DNA from: Mesorhizobium koreense
GTDB lineage: Bacteria > Pseudomonadota > Alphaproteobacteria > Rhizobiales > Rhizobiaceae
Reading direction: 5' to 3'
NCBI RefSeq assembly: GCF_031656215.1
Contig: NZ_CP134228.1
Location: forward strand, 4,545,001 to 4,609,000
DNA: 64,000 nt
Shown here piece by piece: positions 26,985 to 63,648 of the stretch. The notes under the pieces are model-generated. The model ran no database searches, was not told where the DNA came from, and saw only the letters and a list, made by a program, of their open reading frames with translations. Within the stretch, counting starts at the first letter, position 1, and each line of letters opens with the position of its first letter. A program made the position numbers and the translations under genes.

Positions 26985-27255
26985 CAGCAGGGAACGATAT
27001 CACTCGAGCAGCAAGCTGCAGTTAGGAAGGAGGGCCAAAGCACCCGCGAGAGGCGCGAGCCGGACAGGTTGGGCGCTCGAGTGCCTTTTCGTTGGCCGCA
27101 GGGTGAAACCGGAAAAACCCCTGCGTCCGCCATCCCCGTCTCGTCCGGTTGACACGGCTCGCGGCATATCTGGAAGCAACTCCGTCGGAGAACATCCGTT
27201 CCCAACGGGCAGAATATGGAAGCTCAAGGCAGATGCGGTGCAATGCGCGCGACTA
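26985..27255. other. Intergenic stretch without recognisable gene
   Basis: These 271 bp lie between the operator-4 promoter and the degenerate repeat that precedes metB's 3' end. Short open frames exist on both strands, but none has family motifs, a convincing ribosome-binding site or the codon pattern of its neighbours. I see nothing in it that I can name. Confidence 0.4.
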
Positions 27256-42361: not shown

Positions 42362-43615
42362 ATGAAAATCGCCATCATCCACGAATGGCTGACCACCTAT
42401 GCCGGCTCCGAGAAGGTGCTCGAGGCGATGCTGGCCGAGTACCCTCAGGCGGACGTGTTCACGCTAATAAACTTTCTGCCCGACAAACACGGCAAGGTCA
42501 TCCTGCCGCGCGTGGTGCGGACGAGCTTCATGCAGAAGATACCGCTGGTGAAGCATTTCTATCGGCACCTGCTGTGGATGATGCCTTTCGCCGTCGAACA
42601 GTACGACCTCTCCGAATATGACCTGGTCATCTCGAATTGCCATTCCGTCGCGAAAGGTGTGATCACCGGTCCGGACCAGCTTCATATCTGCTACTGCTAC
42701 ACGCCCATGCGTTATGCCTGGGACCTGCAGAACCAGTATCTGGCTGAATCGGGCATGAAGCGCGGCTTCAAGAGCCTGCTCGCTCGCATGATCCTGAACA
42801 GGATTCGCATCTGGGACATGCGCACGGCGCCCGGCGTCGATCATTTCATCGCCTGTTCGGGTTACATCGCCCGGCGGATCCGCAAGATCTACCGGCGTGA
42901 TGCGGCGGTAATTTACCCGAACGTTGCGGTCGAGGACTTCGTGATCGGCAACGGCCCGCGCGAGGAGTTCTACTTCACTTCCTCACGCATGGTTCCCTAC
43001 AAGAAGATACATCTGATCGTAGAGGCGTTTTCCAAGATGCCGGACCGCCGGCTCGTCGTCATCGGCGAGGGGCCGCAGTTCAAGCGCATCAAGGCGCTTG
43101 CCGGGCCGAACGTGACCTTGCTCGGCTATCAGCCATTCGATGTTCTACGGTCGCATCTACAGCGCGCCAGGGCGTTCATCTTCGCGGCCGAGGAGGATTT
43201 CGGCGTTGCTCCGCTGGAGGCGCAAGCCTGCGGCACGCCGGTGCTGGCCTTCGGTAAGGGCGGCGCGCTCGAAACGGTTGTTGACGGGGTGACCGGGCTG
43301 CATTTCCACGAACAGACAGCAGACGCGATCCGCAACGTCGTGGAACGGTTCGAAAGACTGCCGGTGGACTTTTTCGATCCGGAGGCGCTGCGTGTCCATG
43401 CCGATCAATTCTCGACGAAGAATTTCCGCGCCCAGTTCCGCGCTTATGTCGATTCCCGATGGGCCGAGCATCTCGCCTGGCTTGCCACTGGCGCGCCGAA
43501 CGTCACGGAAGAGATAGCCGGGCCCAGCAGGCCCGAAAAAGTGTGGCAGCCACAGGGTGCCCGGAAGGAACTGATCCGTCTCGTTCCCAAGTCGATTTCG
43601 GAAGGTGCCCGATGA
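42362..43615 (+). CDS. Glycosyltransferase family 4 (WbaZ-like, GDP-mannose-type donor likely)
   Basis: A 417-residue GT-B enzyme. It begins [19 protein letters not shown], a start typical of WbaZ-type mannosyltransferases. [15 protein letters not shown] lies near residue 110, [17 protein letters not shown] near residue 220, and the donor site [21 protein letters not shown] near residue 285. It overlaps gmd by 4 bp, so its donor is plausibly GDP-mannose or a sugar made from it. A GGGGAG site precedes the start by 12 nt. Confidence 0.9.
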
Positions 43616-44769
43616 AAAAGGCGCTGATCACCGGCGTAACCGGCCAGGATGGAGCCTATCTGGCAAGCCTGCTGTTGCAGAAAGGGTATGAAGTGACCGC
43701 CGCATATCGGCGGTCGAGTTCACCCGATTTCTGGCGAATCCGAGAGCTTGGGATAGAGAGCAATCCGAGGCTCAGGTTGACCGAGCTGGAGCTCGTCGAC
43801 CTCGGCTCCTGTTTGCGGCTGATCGAGAAGACGGAGCCGGACGAGATCTACAATCTGGCCGCGCAGACGCATGTCGGCTTTTCCTTCCATCATCCGATGA
43901 CGACGGCGCATGCGACAGGACTCGGGCCGTTGCATTTCCTCGAGGCGATCCGCAACATCAACCTTGGCATTCGCTACTATCAGGCATCTTCGGCGGAGAT
44001 GTTCGGCAAGGTGCAAGCCGTGCCGCAGAACGAGGCAACGCCGTTCTATCCGCGCAGCCCCTATGGCGTAGCGAAGCTGTTCGCACACTGGATGACCGTC
44101 AACTACCGGGAATCCTACGGCTTGTTCGGCTGCAGCGGCATCCTCTTCAACCATGAATCGCCCTTGCGCGGGCTCGAATTCGTCACCCGCAAGATCACCG
44201 ACGGGGTGGCGCGTATCCGGTTGAGCGATGCCGGGCCGATCGAACTGGGCAACCTCGGCGCCAAGCGCGATTGGGGGTATGCAAAGGAATATGTCGAAGG
44301 CATGTGGCGCATGATGCAGGCCGACGAGCCTGCCACTTACGTTCTGGCCACCAACCGTACGGAAACGGTACGCGATTTCGCAACGATGGCCTTCGCCGCT
44401 GCCGGCATGGATGTCGAATGGGTGGGCCGGGATGAAAAAGAACGTGGACTGTGCCCGAAGACCGGCCGGGATCTCGTACGCATCAATCCCGATTTCTACC
44501 GTGCGGCCGAAGTGGACCTGCTGAAGGGCGACGCTTCCAAGGCACGGAATCTTCTTGGATGGAAGCCCGGGACAACACTCGAACAGCTATGCGCCATCAT
44601 GGTCCAGGCGGATCTTGAGCGGGTCGAACGTGAATTCGCCTTCCGGCATCCCAAGCCCAAATCTCGGCATAACCTTCCCAAGGCAAACGGCCACCTGCCG
44701 GTGCACCCTTCTTCAGGTCCCGCACCGGAATCCGCCATCGCCTCGCCTGCCCTGGCACCCACACGCTGA
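43612..44769 (+). CDS. gmd: GDP-mannose 4,6-dehydratase
   Basis: A 385-residue extended [15 protein letters not shown] at residues 8-19 is the nucleotide motif, [10 protein letters not shown] near residue 122 and [12 protein letters not shown] near residue 145 hold the Ser/Glu/Tyr/Lys active site. FNHESPLRG near residue 180 is the Gmd family segment. It converts GDP-mannose to GDP-4-keto-6-deoxymannose. No GDP-fucose synthase or obvious 4-reductase lies beside it. The last 40 residues are a low-complexity Pro/Ala tail not needed for catalysis. Confidence 0.93.
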
Positions 44770-44794: not shown

Positions 44795-46174
44795 TCAGGC
44801 GCTCTTGCGAGCATATACCGCCCGTGGCGGCTGGCCATTCTGATTGAACCGCCTGTAGACGGTCTGCGACGGCCGTCCGACCAGGTAGCGTTCCGCGCCA
44901 TCCTGCAGCGCCCGCGCATAAACTTCGAGCGCACCGTCGATCGCTTCCAGGGTATAGTCTATGTCGGCGTCCTGATGCGTGTAGCTGACGACCAGCGATG
45001 GCATCAGGATGCCACGGCGTATCGTTTCCTGCAGCAGCAGGGAACGGAAGGATTGCGACGGATTGCCGTCCCGGTCGAGCGTTGCGTAGGTCAGACAGCA
45101 CGGCCGGCCAACCGGATAGACGAAAGCGTCGATCCCGTGCCGCTGCGCTGCCTCTTCCATGCCGGCCTTCAACTTGCTCCCCTGCCGGTTGAGGTGCTCG
45201 ATGACCGGCTGTGTACGGTAGATTTCCATCGTGGCGATGCCGGCGGCCATGGCGTGGGTTTCCGCGCCATGCGTCGTGGAGAGGAGAAAGACACGTGGCA
45301 GGTCGGAATGATCGAGTCCGCCGAGGCGCATGAATTCTCGTTTTCCGGCAAGGGCGGATAGCGAGAAGCCGTTGCCCATCGCCTTGCCGAAGCAGGACAA
45401 ATCAGGGGTAATGCCGTAGAGATGCTGCCCGCCGCTGGCATGCCAGCGGAAGCCGGTGATCATTTCGTCAAGGATGAACAATGTGCCTTCGCGACGGCAG
45501 ATTTCCTGGACGCGGTGCAGGAAGCCGTCCACCGGCTCGTCGCTTCTCGCCGGCTCCAGGATGAGCGCGGCGATCCTGCGGGGATAACGAAGGAATAGCG
45601 CCTCGACGCTCGCAACGTCGTTGTAGCGGAAAGTAAGGGTGAGGCGGCGTGTCGCGCGCGGGACGCCGGCGTTCATCGGCGTCGTGCCGATGAACCAGTC
45701 GTCGGTCGAGAAGAATGGGTGGTCGCCGCAGCACGCGACGAGATCGCGCCCGGTATAGGCGCGGGCGAGCCGGACGGCGCCGGAGGTGGCATCGGAGCCG
45801 TCCTTGCAGAATTTCACCATCTCCGCGCCATGGACGATACGAAGGAACGTTTCTGCGCAATCCGCTTCTATTCGCGCCGGACGCACGAAATTGCTACCGC
45901 CCTTCATCGCGGCCATCGCTGCCTCGAGGACAGGCGGGAAGGCATGACCGAGGCCGACGGTGCGGTTGCCCATACCAAATTCAATAAACTCGTTGCCGTC
46001 GACGTCCCAGACGCGACAGCCCTCGCCTCTTTCAATGAATCCCGGGGCCAAGACCGGATATTGATCGTCGCCTTTCGCGTAGGTATGGGCGCCGCCGGGG
46101 ATGAGCCGGCGCGCCCTTTCCCGAAGACGCTCGGACTGTGCGAATTCCGAAACCATAAGACCTGCCATGTGCAT
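44795..46174 (-). CDS. Class III aminotransferase, glutamate-1-semialdehyde aminomutase-like
   Basis: A 459-residue PLP enzyme of the GSAM-like branch. The start at 46174 follows GAGGGG; an ATG at 46168 is equally well spaced. The N-terminal RRLIPGGAHTYAKGDDQYP resembles HemL. KFCKDGSDATSGAVRLAR is the cofactor/substrate loop, ILDEMITGFR the PLP-contact region, and CFGKAMGNG contains the PLP lysine. HemL is usually a housekeeping gene elsewhere, so this copy inside a polysaccharide locus probably aminates a sugar or small acid that decorates the polymer. It faces gmd tail to tail. Confidence 0.88.
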   Translation of the reverse strand: MHMAGLMVSEFAQSERLRERARRLIPGGAHTYAKGDDQYPVLAPGFIERGEGCRVWDVDGNEFIEFGMGNRTVGLGHAFPPVLEAAMAAMKGGSNFVRPARIEADCAETFLRIVHGAEMVKFCKDGSDATSGAVRLARAYTGRDLVACCGDHPFFSTDDWFIGTTPMNAGVPRATRRLTLTFRYNDVASVEALFLRYPRRIAALILEPARSDEPVDGFLHRVQEICRREGTLFILDEMITGFRWHASGGQHLYGITPDLSCFGKAMGNGFSLSALAGKREFMRLGGLDHSDLPRVFLLSTTHGAETHAMAAGIATMEIYRTQPVIEHLNRQGSKLKAGMEEAAQRHGIDAFVYPVGRPCCLTYATLDRDGNPSQSFRSLLLQETIRRGILMPSLVVSYTHQDADIDYTLEAIDGALEVYARALQDGAERYLVGRPSQTVYRRFNQNGQPPRAVYARKSA

Positions 46175-46488
46175 ACATCCCCTCGAAATCCTGGCACGGG
46201 AGTTTAGGCAAAGCGCATCCGGTTTCGCCGCAGGAAAACGAATAGAGCGCGTAGCGCTAAAGATGTAGCGCCCTGTAACACTCCGCATGAGGCTCAAGGG
46301 GCGCCACCCCCTTCGCATCCCCGAACACCGGCCAGCGCCATACAAATCAAGAGAGCGCGCCCTCTTCGATAGCCGGCGGGACTATTCCGGACCGGGGACC
46401 TAAGCCCGCCGCATTACCTCTAATGCCATTCTTGCGGACAGGCTGTCGCGCTTTGCAGAATGCTGGAAACGACAAGGCGGTCTGGCAG
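46175..46488. promoter_or_regulatory. Divergent intergenic region with possible repeat relic
   Basis: These 314 bp separate the aminotransferase from the ExoY-like gene. Around 46240-46280 lies a short string of AGCGC motifs ending in CCCTGTAACAC, which recalls intergenic elements of Rhizobiales, and a weak 6-bp stem of AAGGGG with CCCCTT is near 46296-46312. I cannot support more than a double promoter region. Confidence 0.4.
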
Positions 46489-47286
46489 ATGTCGATGCCG
46501 AACAATTCCCCGAACATAATCTCTCCGCGGCGAAGCTTTTTCATCATCCGGCCGGAAGGTGGGATACCTGATCCGTTCACGATACCCGGCGGTGGAACAC
46601 CCTTGCTCGACATGCCGGTGGATGGCGCCTTTCTGACCGGCGCGATCGAAATTCCGGCAGCAGGCCGGCTGCCGCTTGGGAGCAAGGCAAAAAGGCTGAT
46701 GGACATTCTTGTGGCGACGCTCGCGCTTATCCTGGCCGCGCCAATAATGCTCGTGATCGCCGCGTTCATACTGGCGGCGGATGGCCGACCGGTCATCTTC
46801 GCTCACAGGCGCATAGGCTTCGCCGGCAGGCCCTTCGACTGCTACAAGTTCCGCACCATGCGGCCCGACGCTTCCGAAGTGCTGCAGAAGTATCTCGCAG
46901 ACAATCCGGACGGCGCTCGAGAGTGGCGCGAGAGGAAGAAGCTGAAGCATGATCCAAGGATCACGCTGTTCGGGAAGCTTCTCAGGGTCTCGAGCCTCGA
47001 CGAACTGCCGCAGTTCTTCAACGTGCTGCGCGGGGAGATGAGCTGCGTCGGGCCACGCCCGATCGTCGCCGAGGAGTTGCCGCTCTATGGTACTTCCGTC
47101 AGTGACTATCTGAGCGCCCGGCCCGGCATTACAGGCCTGTGGCAGGTGAGCGGCAGAAGCAGCATCGGCTATGCCGAGCGCGTTGCGCTGGATTCCCGGT
47201 ATGTGCGCAACTGGTCCCTTCATCGCGACCTCCTGATCCTCTTGCGGACCGCCTTTGCCGTCGTCCGCGTCGATTACACTTCCTAA
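46489..47286 (+). CDS. ExoY-like undecaprenyl-phosphate sugar phosphotransferase
   Basis: A 265-residue bacterial sugar transferase. Starts at 46489, 46495 or upstream at 46423 are all possible; 46489 has AAGGCGG upstream. A disordered N-terminal 55 residues precede a membrane helix (MDILVATLALILAAPIML), and the catalytic domain has HRRIGFAGRPFDCYKFRTM, SSLDELPQFFNVLRGEMS and GPRPIV. It moves sugar-1-phosphate from a UDP-sugar to the lipid carrier and so begins each repeat unit. It lies 19 bp before a secreted glycosidase gene. Confidence 0.93.
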   Translation: MSMPNNSPNIISPRRSFFIIRPEGGIPDPFTIPGGGTPLLDMPVDGAFLTGAIEIPAAGRLPLGSKAKRLMDILVATLALILAAPIMLVIAAFILAADGRPVIFAHRRIGFAGRPFDCYKFRTMRPDASEVLQKYLADNPDGAREWRERKKLKHDPRITLFGKLLRVSSLDELPQFFNVLRGEMSCVGPRPIVAEELPLYGTSVSDYLSARPGITGLWQVSGRSSIGYAERVALDSRYVRNWSLHRDLLILLRTAFAVVRVDYTS

Positions 47287-47305
47287 GCCCGTTCTGGAGC
47301 CGGTT

Positions 47306-48757
47306 ATGATCAAGCAGATTTGGATTTCTCTGGCCCTGCTGGCCACGCTCATCGCACCGGCTCAAGCGGCGTTCCTGTGGGGCGCGAACGGGCATCCGTT
47401 CTACGCCTATCCGGGAACCTCGATCAAAGAGCAGTTCGACCTCCTCGCCGATCTCGGCATGAAGTCCTACCGGGTAAACATCTCGGGCATGGACAAGGCC
47501 GACGAACTGGCGGCGGTAGTCGCGGAAGGCAAGAAGCATGGCATAGCCGTCCTTCCCGTCATCACGCCGGGCGGCCTCGATAGCGATGACCCGAAGGTAC
47601 TTTATCAGCGCGCCTTCGACCTGGCGGTCGGGCTCATCTCGCGCTTCAAAGGTGACATCCGGATATGGGAACTGGGCAATGAGCCGGAAAACCCGACTCT
47701 CATAAAGCCCTGCGAAATGAGAGACGACGGCACCCAATATCCCTGCAATTGGGGCACCGCATCCGGCCGCGACGTGCTCGATTACTATGGTCCGAGATGG
47801 AAACAGGCCAGCGCCATCCTGAAAGGACTCTCCGATGGCGCCATCTCGGTCGACCCGACGATCCTCAAGGCGATGGGCACGGCGGGTTGGGGCCACATCG
47901 GCGCGTTCGAGAGGATGAAGAACGACGGCATACGCTGGGATATCTCGGTATGGCACATTTACGGACAAGATCCAGAATGGGCCTTCAAGCGTCTTGCCGA
48001 ATACGGCCATCCGATCTGGATCACGGAGTTCAACAATCCCTATGGCAGCCAGCGCGGCGATGAAGAGCAGGCGAAGGGGCTGAAATCCATGATGGCGCGA
48101 TTGAAGGAACTCGCGCCGACCTACAAAGTGCAAGCCGCATTCGTCTACGAATTGATGGATGAGCCCTACTGGGCGCCCGATTACGAAGCCTATATGGGGC
48201 TGGTCCGCGTCGTTCCGAAGCCAGAAGACGGTTGGATGACCGGTGAACCGAAACCCGCATATGCGGCAGCCCGTGCACTTATCCGAGGCGAGGAACGCTC
48301 TATTCCAGCGGTTCAATGCCGGCTGGACAACGCCGGCAGGGGTGACGATCCGATCGACATGCGAAGGGTGCGCTATACCTACTGCATGGTGCTCGGCACC
48401 CAGCCGGACGCGGCGGAGCTTGCCGAATGGTCAGGCCGGCTCGAAGGGGGCAAGGCGAAGATTACTGACCTGATCGAAGCGATGTTCCGCACGAACGCTT
48501 TTTACGACAGGTACAGCAGTTTCGGCATGCCGGACCGCACCTATGTGAGCTTTCTCTACAAGCTGCTTCTCAATCGCGTCGCCGACAATGACGGCCGCAA
48601 CAGCTACATGAAACAGTTGGCGTCAGGCACGATGACGCGCAAGGACGTGGCCGTCGGGCTCGCGACTTCGAGCGAGTTCAGGAGCAAGCATCCTGGCCTT
48701 TTCACCAACAATTCGAAAATGGGACCCGCGACCGGCCAGGCGGCAACCGGCGAATAG
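47306..48757 (+). CDS. Secreted TIM-barrel glycoside hydrolase with C-terminal DUF4214 domain
   Basis: A 483-residue exported protein with a signal peptide ending APAQAA near residue 21. The catalytic barrel is of the clan A type: Glu126 in WELGNEPEN fits the acid/base, and Glu241 in [10 protein letters not shown] fits the nucleophile. The layout recalls GH39 and PslG-like enzymes that cut the cell's own exopolysaccharide. From about residue 395 the segment [33 protein letters not shown] and FATSSEFR-like ending matches DUF4214, a domain common in surface and RTX proteins. It starts 19 bp after the ExoY-like gene, so it probably trims or releases the polymer. Confidence 0.82.
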
Positions 48758-48878: not shown

Positions 48879-49949
48879 ATGAAAGTGTTGGTCACGGGTC
48901 ACCAGGGCTATATCGGCTCGGTAATGGTCCCGATATTGCTCGCAGCCGGGCACGATGTCACCGGGCTGGACAGCAATCTCTACGAGCGCTGCACGTTTTC
49001 CCGGGGTGGGCGGATCGCCGACGTGCCGGCGATCCGCAAGGATGTGCGGGACGTCACATGGCGCGATCTCGCCGGCTTCGACGCGGTCATCCATCTGGCG
49101 GCGCTTTCGAACGATCCGCTCGGCAACCTCAATCCGGACATCACTTACGAAATCAACCATCAGGCGAGCGTCAGGATCGCAAGAGAGGCCAAGTATGCAG
49201 GCGTCGCCCGCTTCCTCTTGGCGTCCTCGTGCAGCAATTACGGCGTCTCCGAGGAAGGCCTGATCGATGAGGAGGGCGAACTCAACCCCGTCACCGCCTA
49301 TGGCCGTTCCAAGGTGCTTTCGGAACGCGACATCGCCAAGCTGGCCGACGGCAATTTCTGCCCGGTCTATTTCCGGCCGGCCACGGCCTATGGCGTCTCC
49401 CCGCGCCTGCGCTTCGACATCGTGCTGAACAATCTGGTGGCGTGGGCGGTCGCAGAGAAACTCATCTTCCTCAAATCCGACGGCAGCCCGTGGCGGCCGA
49501 TCGTTCACATCGAGGATATATCGCGAGCCTTCCTGGCGGGCTTGACCGCGCCCGCCGAACTGGTCTGGAACGAGGCGTTCAACGTCGGTTCGACCGAGCA
49601 CAATTACCGCATCCGAGATATCGCCCAGATCGTCACGGAGGTTGTACCGGACTGCAAGCTGACCTTCGCCAGCGATGCGGGGCCTGACAAGCGCTCCTAC
49701 CGGGTCGACTTCTCCAAGCTGGCGCGCGTCCTGCCCGAGGCGAAGCCACGCTGGGACGCTCGCGCCGGCGCCAAACAGCTCTATACCGCCATCAAGGCAT
49801 CGGGCCTGACGGTCGAAGATTTCGAGGGACCGCACTTCCAGCGCATCGCCCACATCCGGCATCTGATGAAGACGGGCGTGCTGCGAAGCGACCTGCGTCA
49901 CATGGAAAAGGCCTCGCAGAAAACCGGCCGGATGGCGACGGTGCACTGA
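48879..49949 (+). CDS. NAD-dependent sugar epimerase/dehydratase
   Basis: A 356-residue extended SDR with GHQGYIGS at residues 7-14 and a GGAGG site before the start. [10 protein letters not shown] near residue 113 and YGRSKVLSE near residue 145 give the active-site Ser, Tyr and Lys. [16 protein letters not shown] follows, as in surface-sugar epimerases. The exact reaction (4-epimerisation, reduction or dehydration) is unclear. It is the first gene of a cassette that continues with DUF4910, RmlC-like, C-methyltransferase, cytidylyltransferase and PIG-L genes. Confidence 0.9.
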
Positions 49950-49950
49950 C

Positions 49951-51285
49951 GTGTCGCCGGCGCGTCCGCGGCCCCTTCCCGCCGATGCTCCGGAAGCGCC
50001 GGCTTCCGCCACGGGAGCGGAAATCTTCGCCCTTGCCGAAGCGATCTTTCCGATCTGCCGGAGCATCACCGGAGAAGGCGTCCGCGAGACACTTCGTATC
50101 CTCGGCCGGCATCTACCCCTGAAGCGTCGCGAGGTGCCGACCGGCACGCGCGTGCTCGACTGGGAAATACCGAAGGAATGGGTGATCCGTGAGGCCTTCA
50201 TAGAGGATATGAACGGCAATCGGATACTCGATTTCCGGGAGTGCAATCTCACCGTCCTGAACTACAGCATTCCGGTCGACCGGATAGTGCATCTGGAGGA
50301 ACTCAGGGAGCACGTCCACACGCTTCCCGATCAGCCGGACGCCATTCCCTATCGGACGTCCTATTACGCGCCGCGCTGGGGCTTCTGCATGCCGCACAGA
50401 CAACTGGAGGCGCTGGCGTCCGGCATGTATCGCGTTCGTATCGACAGCGAACTGAAGGATGGCAGCCTCGCCTATGGCGAGTATGTGCACCAAGGCGAGA
50501 CGGATCGTGAATTCCTCCTCACGACCCATATCTGCCATCCGTCGATGGCGAACGACAATTGCTCCGGGCTGGCGCTTCTGACGCTGCTCGCACGGGATCT
50601 CAGCCATCGACGGACCCGTTATACCTATCGCTTCCTCTTCGCGCCGGGCACGATCGGGGCGCTCGCCTGGCTCGCCGCCAACGAGGATCGCGTAAAGCTG
50701 ATCGACCACGGGCTGGTGATCTCCTGCGTCGGCGACAGCGGCGGACCGAGCTACAAGCGGAGCCGCCGCCACGACGCCTTCATCGACCGGGCCATGGCGC
50801 ATGTGCTGCGGAACGCAAGCGGTTCGCGTCTCCTCGATTTCTCGCCTTATGGCTACGACGAGCGGCAATTCTGCTCGCCGGGCTTCAACCTTCCCGTCGG
50901 TCTGTTCCAGCGCAGCACCTTCGCCACCTTTCCGGAGTATCATACTTCGGCTGACAATCTGGATTTCATCCGGCCGGAATATCTCGCCGATTCCTATCGG
51001 CTGCTGATGGATGCCATCGACATCGTCGAAAAGGATTGGACGCCGCTCAATCTTTTCCCGAAAGGGGAGCCGCAGCTCGGCCGCCGCGGCCTTTACGGTG
51101 CGCTCGGCGGCGACAAATCCGCCAGCGAAAAAGCCATGGCGATGTTGTGGGTCCTTAACCTGGCGGATGGCGAAAACTCGCTCCTGGCGATCGCCGAACG
51201 TTCAGGCTTAAACTTCGATGACGTGGCTGGAGCGGCCGAACTGCTGCGGGAACACGGCCTCCTTGCCGCATCGGTAGCAGAATAG
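49951..51285 (+). CDS. DUF4910 aminopeptidase-like protein
   Basis: A 444-residue protein starting at GTG one base after the epimerase stop. FPICRSITGEGVRETL near residue 33 and VPTGTRVLDWEIPKEW near residue 62 are DUF4910/DUF2172 hallmarks. The M28-like metal site appears intact: His193 and His196 in THICHPS, Asp202 in NDNCSG, and later YHTSADN. A winged-helix-like C-terminal domain covers about the last 60 residues. It has no signal peptide, so it is cytoplasmic. Its tight coupling to sugar genes suggests action on a nucleotide-sugar or an amide-linked decoration and not on peptides, but no function is established that I can rely on. Confidence 0.85.
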   Translation: MSPARPRPLPADAPEAPASATGAEIFALAEAIFPICRSITGEGVRETLRILGRHLPLKRREVPTGTRVLDWEIPKEWVIREAFIEDMNGNRILDFRECNLTVLNYSIPVDRIVHLEELREHVHTLPDQPDAIPYRTSYYAPRWGFCMPHRQLEALASGMYRVRIDSELKDGSLAYGEYVHQGETDREFLLTTHICHPSMANDNCSGLALLTLLARDLSHRRTRYTYRFLFAPGTIGALAWLAANEDRVKLIDHGLVISCVGDSGGPSYKRSRRHDAFIDRAMAHVLRNASGSRLLDFSPYGYDERQFCSPGFNLPVGLFQRSTFATFPEYHTSADNLDFIRPEYLADSYRLLMDAIDIVEKDWTPLNLFPKGEPQLGRRGLYGALGGDKSASEKAMAMLWVLNLADGENSLLAIAERSGLNFDDVAGAAELLREHGLLAASVAE

Positions 51286-51288
51286 GCT

Positions 51289-51831
51289 TCACGCGATGCC
51301 GACGGGTTCCAGCGCAGGCCATTTCCGATCGTTGTCGGACAGGATCGACGGAGAAGCCGGCCAGTCGATTGCAAGCAGCGGGTCGTCGTAGCGGATGCCG
51401 CTCGCCGCCGCCGGCACATGAAATTCGGAAATCAGATACGCCACCGTAGTCTCGTCCGCGAGTGTCTGGTGTCCGTGTGCAAAACCCTTCGGCACATAGA
51501 GCTGAAGCCGGTTTTGCGCCGTAAGATCGAAGGCCACCCATTGCCGATAAGTGGGTGATCCGGGGCGCAGATCGACGATCACATCGAATATCGCGCCCTG
51601 GATGCAGGAGACGATCTTTACTTCGGCATAGGGCGGGCGCTGGAAGTGGATGCCGCGCAAAGTGTGTCGTTTCCGCGAAAATGAGATCGAATGCTGGACG
51701 AACTTCGTTTCCAGCTTGCGCGCGCCGAATTCCTGGACACAGAAGCTGCGTGCGAAAAAGCCCCTGTCGTCATGAACCGGCTCCGGCGCGACCAGCCAGG
51801 CACCCTTGAGCACGGTTTCCTCGAAACGCAT
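51289..51831 (-). CDS. dTDP-4-dehydrorhamnose 3,5-epimerase-like cupin (RmlC family)
   Basis: A 180-residue protein of the RmlC family starting at 51831 (MRFEETVLKGAW) after GGGCAGGG. Family features are PVHDDRGFFARSFC, HSISFSRKRHTLRGIHFQ with the catalytic His, and YVPKGFAHGHQTL. It epimerises C3 and/or C5 of a 4-keto-6-deoxysugar nucleotide. No rmlA, rmlB or rmlD lies in the window, so its substrate may be the product of the cassette and not dTDP-rhamnose. It is on the opposite strand to its cassette neighbours and ends 3 bp from the DUF4910 stop. Confidence 0.92.
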   Translation of the reverse strand: MRFEETVLKGAWLVAPEPVHDDRGFFARSFCVQEFGARKLETKFVQHSISFSRKRHTLRGIHFQRPPYAEVKIVSCIQGAIFDVIVDLRPGSPTYRQWVAFDLTAQNRLQLYVPKGFAHGHQTLADETTVAYLISEFHVPAAASGIRYDDPLLAIDWPASPSILSDNDRKWPALEPVGIA

Positions 51832-52162
51832 CCCTGCCCTACCCCACGCGACCTCTGGCCGCGAGATGGCGGCCACAACACCATGTCGCGGCGGCGGACC
51901 GGGCGATATCCGCCTCCAGGACGGTTCATGCTGGACGAAAGGCTGAGTGGCGGGCCGCGCTTACGCCTTCAGGTGAGTGAGGGCGGTATGCACTCGGCTA
52001 TTGTCTGTAAAGCGCGATGCAAGCGTACCGGGCGGTCGTTCAATGGAGTTATTCCGGCCGATCGAATTGCCGGATCGTCAGCCATGCCCGGCGCCGTCTA
52101 CTCTTCGTGTGCTCGCAGTTTGAACGCATCGACCGATTGCGTTCTGAAATCCGGAGGAGCGC
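51832..52162. promoter_or_regulatory. Divergent intergenic region
   Basis: These 331 bp lie between the RmlC-like gene (minus) and the methyltransferase (plus) and must hold a promoter for each. The GGAGG site at 52153-52157 serves the methyltransferase. No gene, repeat or operator was recognised. Confidence 0.45.
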
Positions 52163-53455
52163 ATGAATATCCAGGCCAGCGAGGCCAGGCTGCAAACTTC
52201 GGCCGAACCTCTGCATACATGCCGGCTCTGCGGCGCCCATCTCAAGCACAATTTCGTCGATCTCGGCATGTCGCCGCCATGCGAAAGCTTTCTCAGGGCC
52301 GATCAGATCGATGGCGTGGAGCCCTATTTCCCGCTCCGCGTCATGGTCTGCGAATCCTGCTTCCTCGTGCAATTGCCGGAATATGTCAGCGCCCGCGAGA
52401 TTTTCACCGACTACGCTTACTTCTCCTCCTATTCGACGAGTTGGGTCGAGCATGCCCGGCGCTATTGCGTGGCAATGAAGGAGCGGTTCAATCTCGGGCC
52501 GGCCAGCCTCGCAGTCGAGCTCGCCAGCAATGACGGCTATCTGCTGCAGCATTTCCTCCCGCTCGGCGTGCCCGTGCTCGGCATCGAACCGGCCGCCAAT
52601 GTCGCCCGCGAGGCCGTGGCAAAAGGGGTGCCGACGCTGATCGAATTCTTCGGCGTGGACCTGGCGAGAAGGCTGGTCGCGCAGGGAAAGCGCGCCGACC
52701 TGATCGCCGGCAACAACGTGCTCGCGCAGGTGCCCGATCTCAACGATTTCGTGGCCGGCATGGCGCTTCTCCTGAAGCCGGAGGGGGTCATCACGCTCGA
52801 ATTTCCGCATATCGAGCGGCTGGTGAGCGAAAACCAGTTCGACACCATCTACCACGAGCATTTCTCCTATTTCTCGCTGACCACCGTGGACATCATGGCG
52901 CGCCGGCACGGGCTGAAGGTCATCGATGTCGAGGAATTGCCCACGCATGGCGGATCATTGCGTGTCTATCTCGCGCACGAGCGGAGCCATTGGGCCGATT
53001 CACCGGCGGTCGCCGCCTTGCTGGAGCGCGAGGAACGGCGCGGCTTCAGGGAAATGACCGTCTATCTCTCCTTTGGCGAGCGGGCGCGGCGGGCCAAGCG
53101 CGACCTGCTGGCTTTCCTTGTTACCGCCAAGAACGACGGCAAGACGATCTGCGGCTATGGCGCACCGGGCAAGGGCAACACGCTCCTGAACTATTGCGCG
53201 ATCGGCACGGATTTCCTCGACTTCACGGTCGACCGCAACCCGCACAAGCATGGCCGCTTCACGCCGGGCATGCACATCCCCATCCGGAGCGTCGAGGCGA
53301 TCGACGAGGCCAAACCGCACTACATCCTGATCCTGCCCTGGAATTTGAAGGACGAGATCATCCGGCAGATGCGGCACGTCGCGGCCTGGGGCGCGAAATT
53401 CGTGGTCCCCATCCCCTTCGTGACCATCATAGATCCCGAGGAGTATCCGTCATGA
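52163..53455 (+). CDS. Sugar C-methyltransferase (NovU/TylCIII-like, SAM-dependent)
   Basis: A 430-residue three-domain enzyme. The N-terminal zinc-binding part has CRLCG near residue 15 and CESC near residue 67. The SAM domain has VELASNDGYLLQHF near residue 118, and the NTIYHEHFSYFSL-type segment (DTIYHEHFSYF) near residue 227 is the family active-site region. The C-terminal domain has GYGAPGKGNTLLNY near residue 330. Enzymes of this set add a methyl group to C3 or another carbon of 4-keto-deoxysugar nucleotides. It overlaps the cytidylyltransferase by 4 bp, consistent with a CDP-linked branched sugar. Confidence 0.92.
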   Translation: MNIQASEARLQTSAEPLHTCRLCGAHLKHNFVDLGMSPPCESFLRADQIDGVEPYFPLRVMVCESCFLVQLPEYVSAREIFTDYAYFSSYSTSWVEHARRYCVAMKERFNLGPASLAVELASNDGYLLQHFLPLGVPVLGIEPAANVAREAVAKGVPTLIEFFGVDLARRLVAQGKRADLIAGNNVLAQVPDLNDFVAGMALLLKPEGVITLEFPHIERLVSENQFDTIYHEHFSYFSLTTVDIMARRHGLKVIDVEELPTHGGSLRVYLAHERSHWADSPAVAALLEREERRGFREMTVYLSFGERARRAKRDLLAFLVTAKNDGKTICGYGAPGKGNTLLNYCAIGTDFLDFTVDRNPHKHGRFTPGMHIPIRSVEAIDEAKPHYILILPWNLKDEIIRQMRHVAAWGAKFVVPIPFVTIIDPEEYPS

Positions 53456-54261
53456 AGGTCGTCCTGTTCTGCGGCGGGCTCGGCACGCGCATCCGCGAAT
53501 ATTCCGACAGCGTGCCGAAGCCGATGATCCCGCTCGGGCACCAGCCCATCCTGCGCCACGTCATGCAATATTACAGCGATTACGGGCATGACGAATTCAT
53601 CCTGTGCCTCGGCTACAAGGCCAACGTCATCAAGGATTTCTTCCTGAACGCGCGCCCGCAAAGCTTCTCCGACTGCGTCATCTCGGACGGTGGCCGCGAT
53701 GTCCGTATCCTGGACGAGAATCCGAAGGACTGGCGCGTCACCCTCATCGACACCGGCATCTGGCGCAATATCGGCGAACGGCTCTGGGCCGTCAGGAACT
53801 TCGTCAAGGGAGAGGAAATCTTCCTCGCCAATTATAGCGACGGGCTGACCGACGTCGATCTCGACGACATGCTTTCGCGTTTCCGTGCCAGCGGCAAGCT
53901 CGCCTCCTTCCTCGCCGTGCGGCCGCCGCTTACCTACCACCTCGCCGATATCGCAGAGGACGGACGGGTTCGCGAGTTCCGGACATCGACCACTTCGGAC
54001 ATCTGGATCAATGGCGGCTATTTCCTCTTCCGTGGCGAGATCTTCGATTACATGCGCGAAGGCGAGGAACTGGTGCTCGAGCCCTTCGCCCGCCTCATCG
54101 CCGAGGACAAGCTGATGGCCTACAAGCATGAAGGCTTCTGGCGATCCATGGACACGCTGCGCGACTGGCAGGCGCTGGAGGACATGGTCGAAAAGGGCAA
54201 CATGCCCTGGGCCCGGCGGATGCATGCCCATGCGATCAGGCCGGCAGCGGCCAGCGCATGA
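53452..54261 (+). CDS. Glucose-1-phosphate cytidylyltransferase-like nucleotidyltransferase
   Basis: A 269-residue sugar nucleotidyltransferase. FCGGLGTRIREYSDSVPKPM at the start is the nucleotide-binding loop with the catalytic Arg and Lys; HVMQYYSDYGHDEFILCLGY follows as in RfbF. The late DTLRDWQALEDMV is typical of this family. It joins a sugar-1-phosphate to CTP (by similarity). No clear CDP-glucose 4,6-dehydratase is present next to it, so either the cassette epimerase fills that role or the sugar differs. Both ends overlap neighbours by 4 bp. Confidence 0.88.
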   Translation: MKVVLFCGGLGTRIREYSDSVPKPMIPLGHQPILRHVMQYYSDYGHDEFILCLGYKANVIKDFFLNARPQSFSDCVISDGGRDVRILDENPKDWRVTLIDTGIWRNIGERLWAVRNFVKGEEIFLANYSDGLTDVDLDDMLSRFRASGKLASFLAVRPPLTYHLADIAEDGRVREFRTSTTSDIWINGGYFLFRGEIFDYMREGEELVLEPFARLIAEDKLMAYKHEGFWRSMDTLRDWQALEDMVEKGNMPWARRMHAHAIRPAAASA

Positions 54262-54917
54262 TATCGCTATCCGTCGGCCGCGCCGGCGAGCGCCTTTCGG
54301 TCCTCTGTCTCGGCGCCCATTCCGACGACATCGAGATCGGCGCCGGCGGCACGATCCTGTCGCTCATCGCGCATGGCGTTCGGCTCGAAGTGACATGGTG
54401 CGTGGCAAGCGCTACGGGGCGGCGCGAGGGAGAAGCCCGCGCCTCGGCGGCCGATTTCACCGCGGGGGCGGAATCCGTCTCGCTGGAATTCGGCTCTTTC
54501 GACGACAGCTTCTTCCCCGTCCAGATGCGCGAGATAAAGGAATGGCTTGCCGCCGTTCGCAGCCGTTCGGCTCCGGACATCGTCTTCACGCATCGGCGCG
54601 ACGACGCGCATCAAGACCATCGCGCGATAAACGAGATCACCTGGAACCTCTTCCGCGATCATCAGATCCTTGAATACGAAATCCCCAAATGGGACGGCGA
54701 CATCGGCCGACCGAACATCTACGTGCCGCTCTCGCGGGAGGAATTGGAGCGCAAGGTGGAATTGCTTCATAGCCACTTCGGCAGCCAGCGCTCCAAGGAT
54801 TGGTTCGATGCCGAGACCTTCGGGGGACTGGCCCGGCTTCGCGGGATTGAATGCCGCGCGCCGGAAGGCTTCGCGGAAGCCTTCACGCTCAGAAAAGCCT
54901 GCCTCTCATTCGGCTAA
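54258..54917 (+). CDS. PIG-L/LmbE family deacetylase
   Basis: A 219-residue zinc deacetylase of the PIG-L family. The metal site is given by GAHSDDIEIG (His21, Asp24) and DDAHQDHRA near residue 118. Such enzymes remove N-acetyl groups from GlcNAc-type sugars on lipids or small molecules. There is no signal peptide, so it would act on a cytoplasmic precursor. It is the last gene of the methyltransferase-cytidylyltransferase set and meets the convergent ManC-AGE gene 7 bp away. Confidence 0.92.
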   Translation: MISLSVGRAGERLSVLCLGAHSDDIEIGAGGTILSLIAHGVRLEVTWCVASATGRREGEARASAADFTAGAESVSLEFGSFDDSFFPVQMREIKEWLAAVRSRSAPDIVFTHRRDDAHQDHRAINEITWNLFRDHQILEYEIPKWDGDIGRPNIYVPLSREELERKVELLHSHFGSQRSKDWFDAETFGGLARLRGIECRAPEGFAEAFTLRKACLSFG

Positions 54918-54924
54918 ACACGCC

Positions 54925-57234
54925 TCATTCGGCCGCACGTACCTGCCCGCCGGCGTTGCCGGAGGCATATGGCTCAAGCGTCTGTGCTGTTTCTGTTTCC
55001 GGCTTCGTGCGATCGAGGTATCGCGTCAGTGCGAAAACGAGGTGATAGAAAATGGAGGCCGGCACCTCTGTCGCGACGGCCCTCCCCTTCTCGTCGATGC
55101 GGTCGATCCAGAGACCGGCCGGGGCCGGGTCGATATGCCAGCGGAAAAGCCGCGCGACACGCGCTTCGATTTCTGGCGCCAGATCGGGGCCACCCGTGCC
55201 GTCGAGCGCGATGGCGGCCTTCACCGCCTCCGTCTGCGGCCAGCTTCGTGAGATACGATCAAGCGGCGCACCACTGCGAGAGACAGCGCCATAGGCAAGG
55301 CCGGTCGCGCGATTGAGCCCGTTGGCGACGGCGGAGGCGTAGAGCTTGCGAGCAAACGGGATCAGGTCTTTCTGCCCGCTGCGGGCCGCGAAGTCGCTGA
55401 GCAGGGCCGCCCACTCGAAATGGTGGCCGGGCTCCGTCCAGTCGCCCTCCGTTCCCGTGGCGGGTTTCCAATCGTCGTCGAAGAACTCACCCAGCGTCCA
55501 GCTGTCGGCATTGAAGAAATGGTTGCGGAAAAGATCGACGATGCGCGCGGCGCGGCGCAGATAGTCCCGTTCGCCGGTCGCCTCATGCCATGCGAGGAAC
55601 GCTTCCAACAGATGCATGTGCGGATTGGAGCGCCGCAATCCGCCGCCTTCGGAGGTTTCGAGGAAGCCGGTCAGTTGCCTGTCCTCCAGATGCCCGTCGA
55701 GGAAAGCCATGGTTTCCTGGCCGAGTTGAAGCGCGCCTGGATGTCCGGCGATATGGGCATGCGCCAACGCGAGCAGGACACATGCATGGTCATAGGCGTC
55801 TTCCACCGGGTCCACGACCTCGCCTCCGACACTCAGAGCGCGGACGAAGCCGCCTCTCTTCGTCCTGCCATTTTCCACCATGAACCGGATACCGTGGTCG
55901 ATGAGGGCATCGGCCGGTCCGTTCCAGCCGCGTTCCCTGGCGACGGCAAAGGCGTAGACCTGTCGCGCCATGGTGCGCATGCGTTTTACTTTGGGCAGCG
56001 GCGAGCCGTCGAAGGCCAATGCTTCGAAGAAGCCGCCATGCCGGTAGTCCGCGCCGGCGACGGACCAAAGCGGCAGCGCTTCGTCGAACAGCCAATGGGC
56101 GACACGCCGCCGCCAGGTGCCCGGTACGACGACGCTATCGTCGGCAGGCGTGAGCTTGGTCTCCAGACGTCCGCTCTTTTCGAGGCGCTCGACAATCGTC
56201 CTGACTTGCTGGCTGAGCCCAAGCGGCGCGACGAAGGTGGCGTCGGGAGTCGATACGATCGCGACGTCCTTCATGCCGATCGTCGCGAGCAGCCTTCCAG
56301 AGCTTCTGAGATAGCTGCGTTCGCAATCGATCGCCATGATGTCACCTGTCAGAACGTTGCCGCCCTGATCGGCGTTTCCCGCCTCAAGCAGAGACTGCCA
56401 TGATCCTAGATCGCTCCATCGGAATGCCGCCGGCACCACGGCGATCGGGCTGGCGTGCTCCATGACCGCATAGTCGATCGAGATAGAAGGAATTGCCGCA
56501 TAAGCGTCGAGCGGCAGACGGATGCCGGCAGGACCGGTTGCCGCCGACTGAAGCGCCGCCTTCGCGCGCTCCCAGATTTCCGGGGCGAAGGCGAGGAAGG
56601 CGTCGCGCATCGTGCTTGCTCGGAACAAGAAGATGCCGGCATTCCAGAAAAAGTTGCCGGCATCGACATAACCCCGCGCCGTGGCGATATCCGGCTTCTC
56701 GACGAAGCGTCGAACGGCGCGAGCCGAGGGCGCAACGATCGCCTCGCCGGCCTCGATATAGCCGTAGCCCGTCTCGGGCTTGGTCGGCCGAATGCCGAAG
56801 ACGACAAAATGCCCTGCCTCGGCTGCCGTCGCGCCTGTCTCGATCGCCTGCCGGAACTGCCGATCAGTCGAGATTTCATGATCGGACGGCACGACCAGGA
56901 CAAGATCGTCGCCGAAATTCGCTAATGTGCTGAGTGTTGCAATAGCGACCGCGGCGGCCGTGTTGCGGCCGATCGGCTCGAAGATGGCGTTGCCGCCGCT
57001 AAGATCGACCGTCGCCAGTTCAGCGAGCACGCGTTCGGCGTGACGCTCGGCGGCAATGACGAAGAGCGGCGTCTCCTTTTCCGGCAGGGCCTGCAGGCGG
57101 CGCAAGGTCCGCGCGAGCATCGATCCCTGGCCAGAGAAATCGTGGAATTGCTTGGGGCAGTCTTCCCGCGACAACGGCCAAAGGCGGGATCCAACGCCGC
57201 CACTTAGGACATAGCTCACGATCCTGCTGCTCAT
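54925..57234 (-). CDS. Fusion of mannose-1-phosphate guanylyltransferase with AGE-family isomerase
   Basis: A 769-residue two-domain protein. Residues about 1-345 are a GDP-mannose pyrophosphorylase: LSGGVGSRLWPLSREDCPKQF-type loop near residue 12, VVPSDHEIS near residue 100, and RRFVEKPD near residue 175. Instead of the cupin isomerase found in AlgA/XanB-type enzymes, residues about 375-755 form an AGE-type (alpha/alpha)6 barrel with DYRHGGFFEAL, RSNPHMHLLEAF, TEPGHHFEWAALL and WPQTEAVKAA, which carry the expected histidines and acids. This would combine fructose-6-P to mannose-6-P isomerisation with GDP-mannose formation, feeding gmd and the glycosyltransferases. Confidence 0.88.
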   Translation of the reverse strand: MSSRIVSYVLSGGVGSRLWPLSREDCPKQFHDFSGQGSMLARTLRRLQALPEKETPLFVIAAERHAERVLAELATVDLSGGNAIFEPIGRNTAAAVAIATLSTLANFGDDLVLVVPSDHEISTDRQFRQAIETGATAAEAGHFVVFGIRPTKPETGYGYIEAGEAIVAPSARAVRRFVEKPDIATARGYVDAGNFFWNAGIFLFRASTMRDAFLAFAPEIWERAKAALQSAATGPAGIRLPLDAYAAIPSISIDYAVMEHASPIAVVPAAFRWSDLGSWQSLLEAGNADQGGNVLTGDIMAIDCERSYLRSSGRLLATIGMKDVAIVSTPDATFVAPLGLSQQVRTIVERLEKSGRLETKLTPADDSVVVPGTWRRRVAHWLFDEALPLWSVAGADYRHGGFFEALAFDGSPLPKVKRMRTMARQVYAFAVARERGWNGPADALIDHGIRFMVENGRTKRGGFVRALSVGGEVVDPVEDAYDHACVLLALAHAHIAGHPGALQLGQETMAFLDGHLEDRQLTGFLETSEGGGLRRSNPHMHLLEAFLAWHEATGERDYLRRAARIVDLFRNHFFNADSWTLGEFFDDDWKPATGTEGDWTEPGHHFEWAALLSDFAARSGQKDLIPFARKLYASAVANGLNRATGLAYGAVSRSGAPLDRISRSWPQTEAVKAAIALDGTGGPDLAPEIEARVARLFRWHIDPAPAGLWIDRIDEKGRAVATEVPASIFYHLVFALTRYLDRTKPETETAQTLEPYASGNAGGQVRAAE

Positions 57235-62184: not shown

Positions 62185-62310
62185 CGGAGGGCTTTCATCG
62201 CCCGAAAGATCGAATTGCCCCTTTGCATCAGATGCCTCGAAGCTGCCTGCGTCGTCGGCCTCCATTCGTTCCGACTGCTTTTCCACCCCGCGGAGAGAGC
62301 GGAAACCGCA

Positions 62311-63648
62311 ATGAGTTCTCCTGCTAATCCTGTGCGGCATCCCATTTTGCTTTCGCCGGCGTCAAACAATCCAGAAACCGACAACCTGTCGGATGCAAGC
62401 CGCGAGGTGGATATCAAGGCAACATTTGTCGATCGTTTGCCACCCCGCAAACCCATACGCCGCGTCGCGCTTCTCGGTCTATTCGGGATCGGGAACATGG
62501 GCAACGACGCATCGATGGAAACCATGCTTCGTTTTCTCAGGGAACAATCGCGAGACTGCAGCGTGCACTGCCTATCGGTAGATCCCGAAGCGATCCGCCG
62601 AACGTATGGCGTCGATACGATACGCCTCAACTCTCGTTTTCGATCGCGCCTGCTCTTTCGACTGGACAAGACGCTGTTCAGGATACCGGGCGGGCTCTTG
62701 GATCTGGCGAGGACGATCCACTCGGCACACAAGTTCGACCTGCTTGTCGCGCCCGGCACGGGACTACTCGACGATTTCGGCACCGGTCCCTTCAGCTGGC
62801 CTTACACGCTCTTGAAATGGTGCGTGGCTGCACGGCTTTCCGGCGCGCAAATCTGGCTGGTGAGCATCGGTGCCGGGCCGATCCGAAATCCCCTCAGCCG
62901 ATGGATGATGAAAAAGGCGGCACGGCTTGCGCGATATCGTTCCTACAGGGACCGGATCTCGCTCGAGTTCATGAGAAGCATCGGCTTCGATACCGGAAAA
63001 GACACTGTCTTTCCCGACATCGTATTCAAGATGGAAACGCCTCCTGCTGCCCGGATCCCCTCCCGAGACAAGGAAATGATCGTCGGGGTCGGGGTCATGG
63101 GCTACAAGGGATGGCATGCATGGGAGGCCGGAGGGGCGGAGATATACGCTTCCTATCTCTCCCGCATCACTTCCTTCATCGTCTGGCTATTGGATAGTTC
63201 ATACAGCGTACGCATCTTCACGGGCGCACGATCGGACGGCGAGACCGTCGAAGAGATAGTCAGCCGGCTGGCCACTATGCGGCCCGGTCTGGGCGAGCGG
63301 TGCGTCGCCGTCGAAACAAGCTCGCTTTCCGAGCTTGTGGAGCAGATGTCCGCAGTAGACATCACGGTCGCTACACGGTTCCATAACGTCATCTGTTCAC
63401 TGAAGGCCGGCAAACCCACCATTTCCGTCGGCTATGCCCGGAAAAACGACGTGCTCATGGCCCAATTCGGCCTGGGAGAATATTGCCATCACGTCGAGGG
63501 TTTCGACGTCGAGCGATTGAAACTGCAAATCACCGACATCTCGGAAAACAGGGAAGAGATTTCGGCTTCGATCCGCGGCAAGCTCGATGTGCTGAAAGCC
63601 GAGCTTGAGCGCCAGGACCGGTATCTCCTTGCCGAGATGCTTGGCTGA
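62311..63648 (+). CDS. Polysaccharide pyruvyl transferase family protein
   Basis: A 445-residue protein starting at 62311 behind GGAGAGAG. GLFGIGNMGNDASMETM near residue 55 is the N-terminal family motif and ATRFHNVICSLKAGKPTISVGYARKNDVLM near residue 350 in parts (RFHN, GYARKND) marks the C-terminal half. Members add pyruvate ketals from phosphoenolpyruvate to sugars, giving the polymer negative charge; some relatives have other transferase roles. The first 45 residues look unstructured. It ends 42 bp from the convergent flippase gene. Confidence 0.85.
   Translation: MSSPANPVRHPILLSPASNNPETDNLSDASREVDIKATFVDRLPPRKPIRRVALLGLFGIGNMGNDASMETMLRFLREQSRDCSVHCLSVDPEAIRRTYGVDTIRLNSRFRSRLLFRLDKTLFRIPGGLLDLARTIHSAHKFDLLVAPGTGLLDDFGTGPFSWPYTLLKWCVAARLSGAQIWLVSIGAGPIRNPLSRWMMKKAARLARYRSYRDRISLEFMRSIGFDTGKDTVFPDIVFKMETPPAARIPSRDKEMIVGVGVMGYKGWHAWEAGGAEIYASYLSRITSFIVWLLDSSYSVRIFTGARSDGETVEEIVSRLATMRPGLGERCVAVETSSLSELVEQMSAVDITVATRFHNVICSLKAGKPTISVGYARKNDVLMAQFGLGEYCHHVEGFDVERLKLQITDISENREEISASIRGKLDVLKAELERQDRYLLAEMLG

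Follow-up and report, generated by a model that had tools for sequence, protein, structure and literature searches.

A conserved DUF4910-containing cassette of Mesorhizobium koreense and its proposed part in making a CDP-activated 3-C-methyl-branched hexose

Sugar 3-C-methyltransferases of solved structure, such as 4rv9 (a D-mycarose 3-C-methyltransferase, which we take to be MtmC) and TcaB9, act on dTDP-sugars in antibiotic sugar pathways. We examined a relative of these enzymes in a gene cassette of Mesorhizobium koreense, at positions 48,879 to 54,917 of a 64,000-nucleotide stretch of contig NZ_CP134228.1 (the whole stretch is called the window below; its genome, G000, is a single contig of 5.04 Mb), where it lies with a cytidylyltransferase, a short-chain dehydrogenase/reductase (SDR) and a protein of the DUF4910 family. 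In the accessible text of PMC4053727, S. meliloti has the trio SMb21416-SMb21418, given as ddhA, ddhB and a 3-C-methyltransferase. This trio shares with the window a cytidylyltransferase and an NDP-hexose 3-C-methyltransferase, but it has a CDP-glucose 4,6-dehydratase where the window has the SDR, and no DUF4910, PIG-L or aminotransferase gene is mentioned there. For DUF4910, the accessible part of Das et al. (2014; PMC4000134) describes the structure 3k9t of CA_C2195, with one Zn bound by His189, Asp195 and His324 and with Ser and Pro replacing the catalytic Asp and Glu, and suggests that such proteins help to make modified sugars, perhaps by transacylation, alongside an epimerase/dehydratase, a nucleotidyltransferase and a sugar methylase. 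A general role of DUF4910 in sugar modification is thus already published. The genetically tested member is Cj1295 of Campylobacter jejuni, called a DUF2172 protein in PMC6321876, without which the di-O-methylglyceroyl form of pseudaminic acid is not made and which the authors proposed to remove the C5 acetamido group (Hitchen et al., 2010; PMC3068675). This family of unknown function has one solved structure and, among the papers found, a single genetically tested member.

The window cassette is a variant of this known type of sugar pathway, with one of the customary enzymes exchanged for another. With a probability of roughly 0.6, we propose from its gene families and their neighbourhoods that it would be a module for a CDP-activated 3-C-methyl-branched hexose of a surface polysaccharide. 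The genes of the set are as follows.

44795-46345, minus strand: class III aminotransferase resembling glutamate-1-semialdehyde aminomutase (GSAM), of the PRK06209 kind (NF004856 763 bits, cut-off 486)
48879-49949, plus strand: SDR-family sugar-nucleotide enzyme (PF01370), proposed to be an NAD-dependent CDP-hexose C4-dehydrogenase (Cj1427-like) and not a 4,6-dehydratase
49951-51285, plus strand, GTG start: DUF4910/DUF2172/HTH_47 protein of the CDP-sugar subfamily (PF16254 366 bits, PF09940 127 bits, PF16221 99 bits)
51289-51876, minus strand: RmlC-like sugar 3/5-epimerase (PF00908 208 bits; TIGR01221 170 bits, cut-off 156)
52163-53455, plus strand: sugar 3-C-methyltransferase (CMT; PF08421, PF13489 and PF08484 above cut-off)
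53452-54261, plus strand: sugar-1-phosphate cytidylyltransferase-like protein (CT) without the EKP motif (PF00483; TIGR02623 217.9 bits, below the cut-off of 300.25)
54258-54917, plus strand: PIG-L-type N-deacetylase (PF02585 61 bits, cut-off 28; HxDD motif read as HSDD)

The six genes named in the original prediction are all present as open frames with Pfam matches above cut-off, and the aminotransferase gene, upstream of those six, is a seventh member of the set that the prediction had omitted. Its pyridoxal phosphate lysine is kept (FGK), and its real start may be the ATG at 46174 or 46156. As the prediction had stated, the DUF4910 gene begins one base past the SDR stop, and the two form a plus-strand pair; CMT, CT and PIG-L follow one another on the plus strand as a second group, each overlapping the next by 4 bases. 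The RmlC-like gene lies 3 bases tail-to-tail from the DUF4910 gene and 286 bases head-to-head from the CMT gene. Because it is on the minus strand, the cassette is not a single run of overlapping genes, and the start/stop overlaps that had been ascribed to the whole set hold for CMT, CT and PIG-L. The CMT has the zinc-binding, methyltransferase and C-terminal domains of sugar 3-C-methyltransferases, and 4rv9 (292 bits) and TcaB9 (244 bits) are its nearest solved structures; unlike in their dTDP-sugar setting, its set includes a cytidylyltransferase. A CDP-linked 3-C-methyl sugar, which had been predicted as a CDP-linked branched sugar from the CMT and the CT, is the best reading of this core. 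The DUF4910 protein shows PF16254 with a DUF2172 insert and an HTH_47 tail, and its N-terminus, read by eye, has no hydrophobic leader, in agreement with the earlier statement that it lacks a signal peptide; the protein looks cytoplasmic.

The SDR is probably a C4-dehydrogenase standing in for the dehydratase of the known pathways. Against the CDP-glucose 4,6-dehydratase model TIGR02622 it scores 19.2 bits (cut-off 278.45), which rules it out as such an enzyme, and the best match in the whole of G000 reaches 82 bits; the missing dehydratase of the original prediction is thereby confirmed, and the dehydratase that marks the ddhA-ddhB-3-C-methyltransferase set is absent above cut-off from G000 and present in the variants G142 and L038 (genomes are labelled G and loci L). 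The nearest solved structure to the SDR is 6vo6/6vo8, which scores 130 bits in a single-sequence search where the next structure reaches 67, and a 24-sequence profile gives 178.5 bits for 6vo6 against 110.5 for the next. The alignment with 6vo6 includes the common stretch FRxATxxGxSPRxRxDxxxN. We take 6vo6 to be Cj1427, a 2-oxoglutarate-linked C4-dehydrogenase, and with this assignment the closest solved relative and the shared stretch both place the SDR among Cj1427-like enzymes. The accessible text of PMC10680097 describes Cj1427 as oxidising C4 of GDP-heptose and regaining NAD by converting 2-oxoglutarate to L-2-hydroxyglutarate. Cj1427 resembles what is proposed for the SDR in giving a C4 ketone that retains the 6-OH and in preceding a C3/C5-epimerase, but it acts on GDP-heptose rather than a CDP-sugar and, in the same text, has no C-methyltransferase alongside.

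The exchange of SDR and dehydratase can be followed across loci. Searching species genomes with the DUF4910 protein yielded 110 confirmed stretches. We kept the best 80 and added six plasmid loci and L131, which is that of G142, so that 87 loci were examined. Their flanks reach 10 kb or the contig end (8.9 kb for L034, 12.9 kb for L055), so that a gene not seen at a locus may lie further off. A CMT gene stands beside the DUF4910 gene in 39 of the 87, and these 39 carry the SDR only (34 loci), the dehydratase only (L131 and L038) or neither (L034, L037 and L055), and none carries both. At L038 the dehydratase (482 bits, cut-off 278) occupies the place of the SDR, and in G142, which alone among nine genomes with the cassette lacks a close SDR, a dehydratase of 404 bits directly adjoins the DUF4910 gene, which suggests a glucose-like CDP-sugar substrate. 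No CDP-glucose 4,6-dehydratase above cut-off was found in seven of these nine genomes; the exceptions are G142 and G001, and in G001 the enzyme lies on another contig next to an additional CT and CMT. In addition, L039 and L041 have an L-2-hydroxyglutarate oxidase gene (LhgO; 532 and 527 bits, cut-off 299) between CT and SDR, and the compound it would recycle is the product of the Cj1427-type reaction (PMC10680097, accessible text). L132 has CT, SDR and CMT together without DUF4910. At L133 (G109), an SDR homologue of 49% identity adjoins an EKP-bearing CT, with no DUF4910 match in high-GC frames that are hard to read.

The relationship to 6vo6, the two swaps and the LhgO neighbours suggest that no 4,6-dehydratase would be needed, since the SDR would give a CDP-4-keto-hexose that keeps its 6-OH. 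The proposed pathway would start with the CT making a CDP-hexose. The SDR, with bound NAD and 2-oxoglutarate in the manner of Cj1427, would oxidise C4, and the resulting 4-keto sugar would be methylated at C3 by the CMT and epimerised beside the ketone by the RmlC-like protein, as expected of their families. In the full version, the aminotransferase may add an amino group, most simply at the C4 ketone, and PIG-L and DUF4910 may act on the N-acyl state of the sugar. The DUF4910 protein is then seen as an M28-related metal enzyme that is probably no longer a peptidase, and its exact reaction in the window's subfamily is the weakest step. This turns the missing dehydratase into a specific enzyme-level hypothesis in which the SDR is linked to a known C4-dehydrogenase.

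We compared the occurrence of the set in 151 genomes, G000 and 150 relatives, which are kin, so that the counts are not independent. Nine genomes of eight genera and four families (G000, G001, G019, G047, G077, G088, G119, G120 and G142) are the only ones with close copies of DUF4910, CMT, CT, PIG-L and the aminotransferase. The identities fall off sharply outside them: at least 66% for CT and for CMT in the nine, with next matches of 42% and 54%; at least 60% for the aminotransferase, with a next match of 41%; and at least 67% for the SDR in eight of the nine (not G142), with a next match of 49%, where the next match is always among those within the set E-value limit. PIG-L gives 9 matches in all at E≤1e-30, with at least 53% identity. 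DUF4910 is above the Pfam cut-off in 12 genomes, namely the nine and G068, G111 and G125, and its identity to the window protein is 62-69% in the cassette genomes outside the genus and 30-45% in those three. In G120 the aminotransferase gene sits on a separate contig. Among the 39 loci, PIG-L and the aminotransferase occur together in 22, PIG-L only in 8, the aminotransferase only in 1 and neither in 8, an aminotransferase being counted past a threshold of 44% identity. The complete set of seven is grouped at one locus in Streptomyces KN37, Roseateles XES5, Qingshengfaniella and Neorhizobium plasmids, and six of the seven in Mesorhizobium ciceri R30, where the aminotransferase is not in view. 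A DUF4910 match also lies on pNGR234b of Sinorhizobium fredii NGR234, where a copy of the SDR is expected next to it. The cassette thus occurs in soil bacteria ranging from rhizobia to Streptomyces, in Alphaproteobacteria and Actinomycetota, and abridged or fused versions are found in Verrucomicrobiota, Bacteroidota and Planctomycetota.

These results show that the cassette is real, conserved and more than a chance neighbourhood. The gene-neighbourhood comparison that the original prediction had put forward as a check has hereby been run; the prediction was to fall if homologous loci lacked consistent co-occurrence, and it stands in this respect because the gene set co-occurs across phyla. With the cassette spread over several phyla, knowing its reaction would allow many loci for surface polysaccharides to be annotated.

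The window DUF4910 protein matches 3k9t with 469 bits and shares its three-domain build, its three metal ligands and the Ser and Pro replacements. An intact M28-like metal site, as the original prediction had it, is not what the residues show: the ligands H196, D202 and H331 are kept, but the catalytic Asp is Ser198, the catalytic Glu is Pro232 and the next residue is Gly233, and the protein is rejected as an M28-type peptidase. In an alignment of 93 sequences (the window and 92 loci; L001, a window copy, and L013, a weak match, were left out), H196 is found in 93/93, D202 in 90/93 and H331 in 93/93, Ser198 is Ser in 91/93 and Gly in 2/93, Pro232 is Pro in 93/93, and G301, D303, E304 and R305 are at least 97% conserved. 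At position 233, 49 of the sequences have Gly or Ala and 44 have Glu, and this choice follows the neighbouring genes. Gly/Ala is found in 46/46 rows with CMT, SDR or RmlC neighbours and Glu in 36/36 of those whose neighbours are NeuB or Antibiotic_NAT-like, and the remaining 11 rows have 8 Glu and 3 Gly/Ala (the context labels of L002-L012 rest on 4-kb loci). On a quick tree of 91 rows, which leaves out L014 (a very long branch) and L005 (identical in protein to L015), three more positions that adjoin active-site residues in sequence, 193 (His/Tyr), 240 (Trp/Tyr) and 302 (Tyr/Ser), split almost alike, in 48/48 rows against 40 or 41 of 43; the window protein has H193, W240 and Y302. The same division is seen in gene counts over the 80 scanned loci, in which 40 Gly/Ala-type loci compare with 40 Glu-type loci as 32 vs 0 for CMT, 32 vs 0 for RmlC, 30 vs 2 for CT, 29 vs 0 for SDR, 24 vs 0 for PIG-L and 17 vs 0 for the aminotransferase, and conversely 0 vs 21 for NeuB and 0 vs 16 for NAT. 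Weak GSAM-like matches (30-44%) near some Glu-type members (L058, L059, L069, L081 and L088) are below the count threshold. DUF4910 is therefore two subfamilies that track gene context, with four diagnostic positions, 193, 233, 240 and 302.

This division shows which subfamily the existing data address. 3k9t has Tyr, Glu and Ser at the window's H193, G233 and Y302, and its neighbours in the accessible text of PMC4000134 are spsE, spsF, glycosyltransferases, an epimerase and N-acetyltransferases, with no CMT, PIG-L or aminotransferase; the window protein does not belong to this nonulosonate/NAT-associated type. Cj1295 (435 aa) is aminopeptidase-like and without a signal peptide, as is the window protein, but it works in a nonulosonate context, and in its order, the Campylobacterales, Glu is found at 233 in 28/28 readable loci (25 genes, since three locus pairs overlap), among which Cj1295 itself was not identified by name. 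Because all of these are of the Glu type, the Cj1295 evidence most likely speaks for the other subfamily. The split is less clean in this order, with Ser at 302 in 23/28 and Tyr at 193 in 28/29 readable loci, and Ser198 is Gln in 7/29. Tracts of G or of C, 8-13 bases long, occur in the Campylobacterales DUF4910 loci L109, L111-L116, L119-L121, L123, L126, L128 and L130 (of which L116/L130 and L123/L128 overlap), and in some of them the DUF4910 gene matches in two pieces, which would fit the phase variation reported for Cj1295. G068 carries two DUF4910 genes about 3 kb apart, L008 (C49:6469-7488) and L014 (C49:10675-11703), the latter 30% identical to the window's.

Two kinds of fusion bear on the substrate. 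In L054 (Planctomycetales), DUF4910 and a class III aminotransferase are in one frame, with SDR, RmlC and CMT adjoining, and in L083 and L084 (Mucispirillum, the other subfamily), an Antibiotic_NAT domain and DUF4910 are in one frame. These fusions point to amino sugars, and with the N-acyl change linked to Cj1295 they give indirect support to the predicted amide chemistry, which is plausible for the window DUF4910 protein but would be the weakest step for this protein. The CT also divides with the cassette type. The EKP motif binds the sugar phosphate. It is absent from the window CT and from the CTs of all 23 aligned PIG-L-bearing loci, the six plasmid loci and G142, and EKP, EKA or EKT is kept in L034, L037, L038, L039, L041, L048, L052 and L056, all without PIG-L; L132 and L133, both without a PIG-L match, have EKP. 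The nearest solved structure to the window CT is 1tzf. This CT falls short of the glucose-1-phosphate cytidylyltransferase model TIGR02623 with 218 bits, as do L036 (224 bits), G142 (217 bits) and, despite its EKP, L132 (208 bits), whereas L039, L041 and L048 exceed the cut-off with 404, 403 and 402 bits.

Several observations weigh against the proposed pathway. The PDB file names 6vo6, which we take to be Cj1427, only a putative sugar-nucleotide epimerase/dehydratase, and LhgO occurs in only 2 of 32 cassette loci. The missing EKP motif means that the full cassette may start from a sugar phosphate other than glucose-1-phosphate, perhaps that of an N-acetylamino sugar, although the dehydratase of G142 speaks for a CDP-sugar resembling CDP-glucose. 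PIG-L and the aminotransferase are both absent from view in 8 of the 39 loci (L034, L037, L038, L039, L041, L048, L052 and L055), so the data do not support nitrogen chemistry, or an amide step, shared by every cassette; in the seven of their genomes that were searched (all except that of L055), only 29-34% matches to the aminotransferase were found, and one Antibiotic_NAT-like query gave no match in the 40 scanned loci of the window's subfamily. Residue 233 changes only twice on the 91-row tree and the context also twice, so the perfect match of residue and context amounts to two events with little independent repetition, and a sign test cannot reach 0.05. In Campylobacterales, Asn replaces D202 at 25 of 29 readable loci, so that the metal ligands vary even within the family; the Asn-bearing loci are L101-L116, L119-L123, L125 and L128-L130, with the stretch HP(S/Q)xxNNE. 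Finally, the 151-genome comparison covers six of the seven genes, namely DUF4910, SDR, CMT, CT, PIG-L and the aminotransferase.

Some of this would fit a different role for DUF4910, namely a metal-dependent isomerase or rearrangement catalyst on the CDP-4-keto-3-C-methyl sugar, with PIG-L and the aminotransferase as separate add-ons. We regard this as possible, at well below even odds. The eight cassettes without PIG-L and the aminotransferase, which include L039 and L041 with their glucose-1-phosphate cytidylyltransferases above cut-off, are consistent with it, as are the replacement of Glu233 by Gly/Ala and of Tyr193 by His in all 48 window-subfamily members on the tree and the CMT, SDR or RmlC neighbours in 37 of its 40 scanned loci. 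We know of no precedent for an isomerase- or rearrangement-type reaction in an M28-like fold, which counts against it, and so do the L054 fusion of DUF4910 with an aminotransferase and the evidence linking the other subfamily with an altered N-acyl group (PMC3068675). A role as a non-catalytic scaffold or regulator appears quite improbable. 3k9t is a trimer with a winged-helix domain and without the M28 catalytic pair (PMC4000134, accessible text), and the Asn at 202 in Campylobacterales agrees with such a role, but the conservation of H196, D202 and H331 and of G301, D303, E304 and R305 counts against it, as does the finding that a chemical alteration of the glycan depends on Cj1295 (PMC3068675).

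The SDR could also be a late 4-epimerase or 4-ketoreductase, the 4-keto sugar coming from a 4,6-dehydratase elsewhere, and a GDP-mannose 4,6-dehydratase (GMD)-like open reading frame, recognised by eye, does lie in the window at 43459-44769. The Pfam Epimerase match and GalE-like scores of the SDR are in keeping with this, but the wide margin by which 6vo6 is its nearest structure, the dehydratase in its stead at two loci, the lack of one above cut-off in seven of nine cassette genomes and the SDR of L132 beside CT and CMT with no dehydratase match make it unlikely. That the genes are chance neighbours in an ordinary exopolysaccharide locus is barely credible: polysaccharide loci are rich in such families, but the restriction of five families to the same nine of 151 genomes, together with the locus counts and the 40 vs 40 contrast between the DUF4910 subfamilies, leads us to reject it. 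A bolder form of the proposed pathway, which we advance only tentatively, is a previously undescribed CDP-sugar route with a 2-oxoglutarate-linked C4-dehydrogenase and a distinct DUF4910 subfamily whose rebuilt metal site would act on the resulting sugar, perhaps at a group other than an amide, by a reaction so far unseen in the M28-like fold. If this route is true, 3-C-methyl hexoses keeping the 6-OH would be made without a 4,6-dehydratase.

The original prediction knew of no described pathway with this set. The role of DUF4910 in sugar modification had in fact been proposed in the accessible part of PMC4000134, and no paper joining these gene names was found among open-licence papers. The main text of PMC4000134 contains none of the terms PIG-L, deacetylase, aminotransferase, aminomutase and cytidyl. 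We did not find in the open-licence literature the replacement of the dehydratase by a probable C4-dehydrogenase, the seventh gene, the PIG-L-linked EKP-less CT or the two DUF4910 subfamilies.

Other genes near the cassette were also noted. Just upstream, at 47255-48757, lies a glycosyl-hydrolase-like protein with a C-terminal DUF4214, and similar proteins are near the cassette in L015, L019, L020, L022, L024, L025 and L053. Downstream, at 54925-57234 on the minus strand, a mannose-1-phosphate guanylyltransferase is fused with an N-acylglucosamine 2-epimerase domain in one 769-aa frame, a fusion that also adjoins the cassette in L015 and L028. The open reading frame at 62215-63648 resembles polysaccharide pyruvyl transferases by eye, and annotated ones are near the cassette in L096, L097, L098 and L099. 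ARAGORN found no tRNA in the window, and the only Rfam match in it is the Rhizobiales sRNA Atu_At1 at 27057-27164 on the minus strand (116 bits).

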